Origin: Bugula neritina
Taxonomy: Eukaryota; Bryozoa; Gymnolaemata; Cheilostomatida; Bugulidae
Assembly: GCA_964035545.1 (NCBI GenBank)
Contig: OZ037766.1
Span: 4,193,722-4,257,721 of the forward strand
Length of the DNA stretch: 64,000 bases
Direction: 5' to 3'
Positions 28,643 through 55,722 of this stretch are shown piece by piece. A model generated the notes under the pieces. That model saw only the letters and a list, made by a program, of their open reading frames with translations, did no database searches and was not told the origin of the DNA. The translations under genes were made by a program, and so were the position numbers. How positions within the stretch are numbered: the stretch's first letter is position 1; each line of letters opens with the position of its first letter.

Positions 28643-31600
28643 ATGCATTTACTTTGGGTATGTCCCTGCTTGTTGATGGTGAGTATAAATTGTATATTAG
28701 CTTTTTTATTTTCACATGATTGCTTCCATTAGATGCTGTAAAAAACTCACTTATGTGAAAAGTTCCTGTGAAAACCTAGGATTTAGCTGGGTTAAAACTC
28801 TTATATGCTGACAACATGATTAATTAATGATCTTTAATAAGGCACAAATGGAATTATTATCAGATGCTCTTTCTGCCATCACCAATGACCTGGACTCAAA
28901 CCAATGACCTGTTTCACACCAGGCCTGCGCTCTAACCACTAGACCAAGGCTTTTCCCTTATATAACATGTTAAATATAATTATTATATATACAATTGCAC
29001 ACCACACTAACACATTGATCATCTGTAAAATCTCCAAGGGTAGTTGAAACTTATTTACCTGTTTCTCAACTCTTTTAGGTGATGGCATCTTTTTGCTTGG
29101 CTGGCAGCAACCTAGTAGAACCAGAGTTGTCAAAGTCTGATATCTTATACACAACTGGCAACAGAGACCGGCTTCGAATAAAACGAAGTACAGCCAATGA
29201 AATGCTTGAGCAGCAACAGGTATAAAATCAAAGTGTAAATCTATATTTTAGTTGAGTCATTTTGTTGGCTATATATATATACATCCTGAATGGTTCAAGT
29301 TAAACAGGTTATGTGTTCACTTGCTGAAAACTTGAAATTTAACATGTTCTGAAAGCTGGATTTAAAACAAAAAACAAATGCAGCACTGAATAAAACTACC
29401 GGTTTTTGGTAGTCATCATTGCATTACTTGGATATTACAATATTGTTTGTTTATTCAAGTAAATTATTAGAAATGTAATTACATGTGCAACTTCAGCAAG
29501 CATGTCGTAATTTGCAGGTAAGGGAAATCTCATGAATAATAATTAATACAATATTACTAACCTATCATATCAAAGTGCTGCCTTTCTCAAAATAGCAGTT
29601 TCCAATATTTATCAACATTTCCTCAAAATTTAATATTTATAGTTGTAGCACTTGTTAGGGAAGCTGTCCGCATTTTTTTTATATAAGCAAGCTTCTTTTT
29701 AGTGCAATAAGCCAACATGGCTGAAGAAAGTTATGATAAGTTAGATGCTTTCTCAACGTATGCTTTTCTTGCAGCTGTACTCATACATACAGACCGTCTC
29801 ACAAGGGTCATCACTCATCTCCCTATATCTCTATGCCTACCAGAACCCAACAGATAGTACAGATTCCGGAAAATTCTGTGACTACAACAGTGTAGGTGAT
29901 TACTGTGACATCTCTTTTGACATTTGTCTGAGTCACAAAGGCTACAGGTTGGTTCACAGTATGCTCTGAATTGTAATACATCCATGTTATAGCAAAGCAA
30001 GTGTCTAACTCTGCGGTATGCTTTTGTTGAAAAAATATTCAGGTTTTTGTAAATAGCACAGTTAAGATAACTGTTTCAACAATCAACCAATAGTAATTTG
30101 GCAAATTACTTTTTTAGAAAAACTAGCCATGCAGTTGGTGGAGTGTGTAGAATTATGATAAATATGGTTTATTCCTAATACATATATAATTATATTGCTA
30201 GCTATATATTGAGTTGGATAGTGCAGAGAGAGTGAAAACACTATGTACGTCAAACATTGACTATTTAGCTAGAAGCTGTTCATAGCTTTTTCTCTAAAAG
30301 CTTGTAAAGCTATTTAAATACAACACAGAAATATACTGCAACGCCCGATTCGTGGAAAAAAACTTCAAGTTTCTAATCTGCTACGAAAACAATTTTTTAA
30401 AGAACTGAGTAAATATTTTTATTATATAAATCTACAAACAATTTGAGGTTGTTCTGTAATTAGGATTGTGATTCGTTGAATTTAGTAAATTGGAGTTATT
30501 GTGTTTGTAGTGATTGCTCAATTCTAAGGCTAGTGACTGGAATAGTCAGCAGTGAAGGAGCTGGGCCTAAGCTCTTTGGGTCCATAATTGCTGGAGTAGA
30601 CAACCCTATACAAATTAACAGCACTACATGGAAGGTATTAATGAGAGTATATAATATATATAACTGCTGATAACACTACTTCCTGTGATAACCAGTCATG
30701 CGGCAGACATTCCTTTTGGGTATATTCACTGTACAGTGTACATAGTTGAAACACAAATAATCAAAAGTACTCAATGATTTGATGCGCTATTCCTTGCATC
30801 AATTAAATTTTTGAATTACTTAAATATTGGTTGAATCGTTGATATGTAGGATTGTCAACTTATTTGCAAAAAAATATTTTTTGCCAAAGTTGAATTCAGA
30901 TTCTATTTTAAGTAATAAAACTTTTATTCTTAATGTTTACAACAATAGCTGCACTGTTTTAACTTCAATGCAAGATTTTGTTAAATTTTGCACCCACCAT
31001 ATTAAAATTTGAATGTATGAAATGTATAAAATATTTCAGGGTTTAAGCATACTAATCAGGGTGTTTGATGACGATGGTGTGCGTGTGGACCAAGGAGTGG
31101 CTGTATCAGACAAAGAGCTAATAGACCAGTTCTTTTATGTTGTATCAGAACAAGGGGATACTTCTGATTTAAGACTTACTGGATCTTTAAAACCTCACTC
31201 TAGGTAGGTAACTTTTTATTCCTAAACTGCTAACAAAAGATCAACTAGTGAACACTTTTGACAAGATCTTTAATTGTTATGTAATAATATATTATTTGAT
31301 ATGGTACAAATAAAATGGATTGATCCTATTTTGATCATGTTACATATTTTTATTACGCTGGCATAACTATAGTTACACAGAAAAAATGTCTCATTCAATC
31401 TAATTAGTTAAAAATTTACGTAAACATAGATTCAAACAGAAAAAAGTATTAAGTGCAGTACTGGAGAAATTCAAACAAGCCAGTATTCTAGTTAAGAAAT
31501 GCAGCGCAGAAGTTATGTTCTCTCAAGAATTTCACCCCCCACCCCAAATATCAAAAAATTCATCAAGAAAATTAGATAACTTTGGTCAACATACTTTTGC

Positions 31601-55722: not shown

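Follow-up and report, generated by a model that had tools for sequence, protein, structure and literature searches.

Tandem Notch-ligand-type C2 heads in a giant mucin-like gene of the bryozoan Bugula neritina

In a 64,000-nt stretch of the Bugula neritina genome (assembly GCA_964035545.1, contig OZ037766.1, positions 4,193,722–4,257,721 of the forward strand; this whole stretch is called the window, and its positions are used below), a gene on the plus strand at 28643–55722 (chromosome 2, C2, 4,222,364–4,249,443) was predicted to encode a 3,052-aa protein in which the MNNL/C2 head of Notch ligands occurs ten times in tandem (modules M1–M10). A second gene with sixteen such modules (P1–P16) was found on the minus strand of the same chromosome, ~5 Mb from the first (60 kb at C2:9.28–9.34 Mb). 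Upstream of it lay a degenerate single MNNL with its own DSL (P0, C2:9333619–9336802, minus), which may be a gene of its own. The predicted architecture is new and its parts are known, and the case is stronger than the letters of the window alone had made it, the two genes forming a family that has signs of constraint. The reading that we favour, with slightly less than even confidence, is that the gene in the window (gene 1) encodes a mucin with many calcium-dependent binding sites for membranes or glycans, and that this mucin arose from a Jagged-like ligand and is not primarily a Notch activator.

Gene 1 was modelled by splice-aware dynamic programming. The first runs were anchored on the start and stop given by an earlier sequence-only reading of the window; the agreement with its 43 exons, one open frame and 3,052 aa, all reproduced by the curated model, was thus not blind. 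The curated model had 42 introns, all GT-AG. A looser anchored run returned 50 exons with 2,999 codons; curation then dropped small exons, and missing exons of the modules (A, B or C, see below) were added from reading frames and splice sites. For exon 36 the acceptor at 51376 was chosen, 51382 giving an in-frame stop. A free-ended run, with codon scores trained on the curated model, yielded one chain (27316–55722, 52 exons) in which 38 of the 43 curated exons were identical; the five that differed were exon 1 and exons with alternative splice sites in M1, M4, M6 and M7. Exon 1 (28643–28678), where the leader starts before continuing in exon 2 (29079–29219), was not recovered by the free-ended run, and the first exon, with it the 5′ end, is therefore uncertain; the rest of the gene, including its 3′ end, is firm. 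An acceptor or donor scored below 0 in 14 of the 43 exons (4, 5, 9, 11, 12, 16, 17, 20, 26, 29, 31, 36, 38 and 41). All gene 1 features given below are on the plus strand.

The ten modules, cut at conserved Cys borders, were 149–172 aa each, had 27 to 41% identity to M6 and shared 10 invariant columns, 5 of them Cys. The coding exons of the module (A, B and C) had the same phases in all ten: exon A ended in phase 2, exon B started in phase 2 and exon C in phase 0. Some of these exons were located via the phase pattern itself; the anchored run alone already gave the pattern in M3, M5 and M7. In M4 the A part was interrupted by one extra intron, and in M9 the B part and most of C were within one exon. 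Eight of the ten modules had no DSL, and none of the heads preceded an EGF array. A (CA)n repeat of ~530 bp (47960–48500) was seen in the intron between exons 30 and 31.

In Pfam scans, the MNNL family (PF07657, cut-off 22.5 bits) was matched above its cut-off by M6 (42888–44085; 28.8 bits, E 1e-6) and weakly, under the cut-off, by M3 (36038–37930; 17.3 bits), M5 (41135–42347; 15.6 bits) and M10 (50637–53363; 17.5 bits when scanned alone, no match inside a 441-aa piece). M1 (29775–31692; exons 29775–29947, 30511–30634, 31040–31203 and the start of 31638–31762), M4 (38063–40555) and M7 (44542–46094) gave no Pfam MNNL match, the sole Pfam match of M7 being to an unrelated family at E 0.088; M2 (33421–35440), M8 (46724–48822) and M9 (48928–50546) gave no Pfam match. 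An NCBIfam scan of M6 found nothing. Among five paralogue modules scanned, P7, P3 and P6 scored 21.3, 21.1 and 13.7 bits against PF07657, all under the cut-off. When a profile of the ten modules was run against 177,635 PDB sequences, the best matches were 4xl1 (E 1.2e-5) and 4xlw (E 1.8e-5), both named Delta-like protein, and the third and last match (E 0.11) was unrelated. These PDB matches of the module set, together with the Pfam match of M6, place the modules as a set in the MNNL/C2 family, as far as sequence can assign them, mostly as far diverged members. The assignment made in the sequence-only reading was thus borne out, and the profile searches put the modules in no other family. The structure 4xl1 is presumably DLL4.

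Two module columns, D42 and D108, aligned in 4xl1 to an Arg preceded by Cys and a His preceded by Trp, 68 residues apart like residues 55 and 123. Of 27 modules, D42 was acidic in 23 and D108 in 24, and the neighbouring loop columns D32, D110, D119 and D122 were so in 24, 22, 19 and 27. M8 and P9 had His at the DLL4-like position. As described in those parts of PMC5538765 that deal with the C2 domains of Notch ligands, these domains have a type II topology, Jagged1 and Jagged2 bind calcium via loop aspartates, two of the Jagged calcium aspartates correspond to Arg55 and His123 in DLL4, and the JAG1 change D140A/D144A abolished Notch-stimulated liposome binding. Since Jagged-type aspartates were present in most modules, calcium binding, and membrane or glycolipid binding with it, may be expected of them.

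Between and behind the heads, ten Thr-rich linkers (789 aa together) were found, as the sequence-only reading had described, and Thr and Pro made up 1,019 of the 3,052 residues. The two DSL, six ShK-like and one EGF domains that it had listed were all located, and one DSL, one ShK and the EGF passed their Pfam cut-offs. DSL 1 (31663–31755) scored 30.5 and 27.2 bits against PF01414 (cut-off 24.2); DSL 2, split by an intron (40526–40954), scored 22.7 and 19.9 bits, under the cut-off. ShK-like 3 (42774–42881) was over the PF01549 cut-off (21.8 bits, cut-off 20.9), and the intron-split ShK-like 5 (53577–54189) and 6 (54211–54883) were under it (16.3 and 11.5 bits). ShK-like 1 (32284–32421), 2 (32983–33105) and 4 (44329–44457) were recognised by their Cys pattern and had no Pfam match, nor had any of the three tested in the paralogue. 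All six knots of gene 1 ended C-x8/9-C-x3-C-x2-C, and a 12-sequence ShK-like profile gave three weak PDB matches, ShTK, BGK and OspTx2b (E 0.52, 2.5 and 6.3). The EGF, also intron-split (54902–55201), scored 29.1 bits against PF00008 when scanned alone and 23.2 in a longer piece (cut-off 21.5).

The membrane topology proposed earlier (a signal peptide, one transmembrane helix and a six-residue tail) was recovered in the form of a hydrophobic leader and, near the C-terminus, a strong helix (55633–55701, from hydrophobicity) with the tail RKKSIN behind it. A third, weaker hydrophobic window was present at residue 1200, inside M4. R-X-K-R occurred in gene 1 at aa 45 and 2994 only, that is, as a furin-type motif RIKR-S after the leader (29175–29186) and as RVKR-D ~26 aa before the helix (55256–55267); both sets of coordinates were derived by hand. 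In the model of gene 2 the motif was confined to the two terminal copies. Near the membrane, Asp came next in both genes (RVKR-D in gene 1, RSKR-D in the paralogue), and this placement of R-X-K-R-D suggests processing near the membrane. A Pfam scan of the C-terminal 441 aa found no SEA domain.

In the mechanism that we propose, a three-exon cassette for a Jagged-like C2 (MNNL) head, with or without DSL, would have multiplied by tandem duplication, and the heads would be kept apart by Thr/Pro mucin linkers and by ShK-like knots. Most modules would bind calcium at their loop tips like the Jagged C2 domain and would dock on membranes or glycolipids, so that ten heads on one glycosylated rod could give strong, calcium-dependent, multivalent binding. 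Cleavage at R-X-K-R-D may release the ectodomain or yield a molecule of two parts, and the role is most likely cell-cell, cell-matrix or surface-coat adhesion, rather than Notch activation. Somewhat more tentatively, the two genes could stand for a so far undescribed class of adhesive mucins in which the MNNL head would act, without Notch, as a repeating calcium-dependent membrane/glycan binder, 10 to 16 per furin-processed rod. High-avidity binding to Notch, lipids or glycans had been suggested from the letters of the window; the lipid and glycan part of that suggestion was strengthened by the Jagged-type aspartates, and the Notch part gained little, with a DSL in two of ten modules, a short DSL loop and a short tail.

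A Jagged-like gene of B. neritina (C2:5.564 Mb) had MNNL-DSL exon phases 2, 0, 2, 1 (read from splice candidates), and the M1 and M4 cassettes had an identical phase series. The B exon of the Jagged-like gene was without the DC cysteine of the modules, and the Delta gene on C3 had A and B in one exon. The simplest account of the array would be that a Jagged-like MNNL(-DSL) cassette was duplicated in tandem and that most copies lost the DSL. Gene 1 resembles Jagged/Serrate and Delta (human JAG1, JAG2, DLL1 and DLL4) in the C2/MNNL family, in the Cys pattern and in a DSL after the C2 in two units; with Jagged it also has in common the Jagged-type calcium aspartates, and with the B. neritina Jagged-like gene the cassette phases. 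However, Jagged and Delta have one head and the giant genes ten or sixteen, plus mucin linkers and ShK-like knots; Jagged and Delta carry an EGF array, gene 1 one EGF just before the membrane; and in gene 1 the DSL loop is shorter than Delta's and the tail has six residues. The canonical layout (a single N-terminal MNNL, a DSL and an EGF array) was not seen in gene 1.

The two giant genes were compared as strings of MNNL, DSL and ShK domains, which read NDSSNNNDNSNSNNNNSS for gene 1 and NDSSNNNNDNNSNNNNSS then NNNNSNS for gene 2. Their alignment score was 15 against a shuffled mean of 6.6 and was reached in 0 of 20,000 shuffles, in a test where the letters were assigned by hand, the EGF and P0 with its DSL were omitted, and the shuffles did not preserve the order of DSL after MNNL or the pairing of ShK. 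We take this colinear domain order to mean that about ten modules were already arrayed when the two genes split. In a tree of the modules 18 of 24 inner branches were open, and best identities did not follow module order; module-by-module orthology is unclear on this tree, and colinearity therefore rests on domain order. The DSL-bearing modules M1, M4, P1 and P5 clustered (87/84), at a place where long branches meet, and M8 joined P9 (81/89), at matching places in both genes; the M8-P9 and P1-P5 joins unite long branches and may be false. Modules of the two genes were completely intermingled on the tree (10 label changes against a shuffled mean of 8.3); this agrees with an array older than the split, but weakly, the tree being so poorly resolved.

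At the end of the paralogue, P15 and P16 were a recent copy (96.5% over 1.8 kb). Their dN/dS was 0.22, with 12 synonymous and 10 nonsynonymous differences over 714 nt including the following ShK-like and juxtamembrane part, and these are signs that the newest module copies are under constraint. The helix exon of gene 2, with a tail of ~15 residues, lay behind the last copy; it came from a separate scan, the computed model running on elsewhere without this exon.

Genome-wide searches covered the 215.8-Mb assembly. All matches (E ≤10) of an A-exon probe (24 of 24) and of a C-exon probe (19 of 19) fell inside the two giant loci, and no third multi-module locus was found genome-wide among the best candidates, which were scored. 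A search with the MNNL family itself found Delta at 109 bits and the Jagged-like gene at 23.5 bits, each through one exon. Weak DSL profile matches at C3:23.07–23.08 Mb were traced to a long EGF repeat array (C3:23066000–23086000), named MEGF-type by eye. Among proteins, a homologue search with the M6 region gave 80 candidates, none at E ≤1, in a database that may hold few animals. The ten-module profile matched 1 of 692 candidates, P0002, a 151-aa JGI metagenome protein that was almost identical to the M8 exon with its translation continued into the intron; by this sequence, that metagenome contains DNA of B. neritina or of a close bryozoan.

Several of the results count against a calcium-dependent, membrane- or glycan-binding mucin built of MNNL heads. 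Six of the ten modules had no match in the Pfam MNNL scan, nor had P8 and P11 among the five paralogue modules scanned against PF07657, and the genome-wide MNNL search found neither giant locus, both being coded in shorter exons. Acidic residues were lost at four of the six loop positions in M8 and P0, and at five in P2 and P9. The same sections of PMC5538765 report that DLL1 and DLL4, without these aspartates, still bind liposomes; the aspartates are therefore neither proof of lipid binding nor needed for it. The furin-type sites are sequence motifs only. The design of the colinearity shuffles and the separate source of the gene 2 helix exon, given above, belong here too. Finally, the Jagged-like gene, which has an EGF array, has 7 residues in its DSL loop, and a short loop therefore need not abolish Notch binding.

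This last point bears on the possibility that the protein is a Notch ligand or decoy, in which the two MNNL-DSL units would bind Notch and the extra heads would raise avidity, in trans or in cis. The two units stand in canonical order with the exon phases of the Jagged-like gene, Notch is in the genome (NOD 70.4 bits), and the DSL-bearing modules fall together in the tree, with long branches there. However, the DSL loops have 8 residues between the cysteines versus 11 in B. neritina Delta, whose RDD..GHY is absent, no EGF array follows the DSL, and the tail is RKKSIN; with such a loop, no EGF array and this tail, the protein is less likely to be a standard activating ligand. Eight of the ten modules are without DSL, and in this genome Delta and the Jagged-like ligand each have a gene of their own. 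In our judgement the protein is unlikely to be a Notch ligand or decoy.

An allorecognition or immune-type surface receptor of the colonial animal, one that would be diverse in its linkers and modules, would suit the large multi-domain ectodomain, the repetitive linkers, the modular colony and the recent tandem duplication near the paralogue end; the short tail and a dN/dS of 0.22, not >1, in the newest copies speak against it, and we hold it to be quite unlikely. We put at about the same low level a secreted or cuticle-bound mucus or adhesive (feeding mucus or larval glue), for which the helix would be a temporary anchor before furin-type release: R-X-K-R-D lies close to the helix in both paralogues and a large share of the residues is Thr and Pro, but the cleavage site on which release depends is a motif only. 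A model that wrongly fused several neighbouring genes, or a decaying array, would agree with the weak splice sites and the uncertain 5′ end, but is very improbable: the phases of all 43 exons fit a single frame, a single chain also came out of the free-ended run, and the paralogue is colinear and shows constraint.

The adhesive, mucin-like protein that we favour may be set beside other systems. Membrane mucins whose stalks are processed have Thr/Pro-rich rods, a single helix and a juxtamembrane cleavage motif in common with gene 1, which differs in having Notch-ligand-type C2 heads between the rods. Ferlins and extended synaptotagmins, which are intracellular, have many C2 domains per chain and bind membranes in a calcium-dependent manner; gene 1 likewise has many C2 domains per chain, whereas its modules are Cys-rich and stand behind a leader. 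A title- and abstract-level search of the open-access literature on MNNL, DSL, ShK and bryozoan Notch found no tandem-MNNL protein described, in line with the earlier statement that no described family has this layout, and by term counts the words Notch and mucin had zero occurrences in the bryozoan genome papers PMC7576161 and PMC13326412. As far as the sections of PMC8166818 on these genes go, bivalves have tandem DSL genes, and Delta is defined there by DSL, MNNL and EGF. A Notch-ligand domain is thus likewise repeated in another lophotrochozoan, but by that account the bivalve genes repeat DSL without EGF, whereas B. neritina repeats MNNL and DSL is rare. For a choanoflagellate, MNNL with DSL is recorded in the relevant part of PMC6040629.

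Elsewhere in the window, a GC-rich LTR retrotransposon was present on the minus strand (1791–9831), with a 1,989-aa frame containing protease, reverse transcriptase, RNase H and integrase, a second frame of 306 aa in which a CCHC-like motif was recognised by eye, and matching LTR-like frames at both ends. A neighbour on the minus strand (57914–60495) resembled a membrane mucin by eye, in that a Thr/Ala/Asn repeat occurred together with a hydrophobic stretch; Pfam scans of three of its frames gave no match. Elsewhere in the assembly, a near-complete nuclear COX1 copy was found at C6:11174072–11175412 (433.3 bits, against 435.4 on the mitochondrial contig), and further COX1 genes, which may come from cobionts, were on C17, C65 and C196; one of them lacked TGA codons and two were each broken into two pieces. 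The mitochondrial contig used the invertebrate code, with TGA as Trp; AGR as Ser and ATA as Met fitted. Its gene order on one strand was nad2-cox2-cob-nad4L-nad4-nad5-nad1-cox3 and nad6-cox1-atp6 (all but cox1 named by eye). This agrees with the order tabulated for B. neritina in PMC2678162, nad6-cox1-atp8-atp6-nad3-nad2-cox2-cob-nad4L-nad4-nad5, and the code and gene order, with the chromosome sizes, exclude a sponge or cnidarian as the source.

The C2 head of Notch ligands interacts with lipid as well as with Notch, and it is difficult to tell these roles apart. In B. neritina a signalling head that occurs once per ligand has seemingly been turned into a repeating unit, and the C2 seems to be separated from receptor activation, since no DSL follows eight of the ten heads and no EGF array follows any of them. 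Single modules could reveal whether calcium-dependent binding of membranes or glycans is the basic property of the C2 domain. The two colinear genes would also illustrate how a domain array can grow under the guidance of exon phases, in a phylum that has been little studied at the molecular level.

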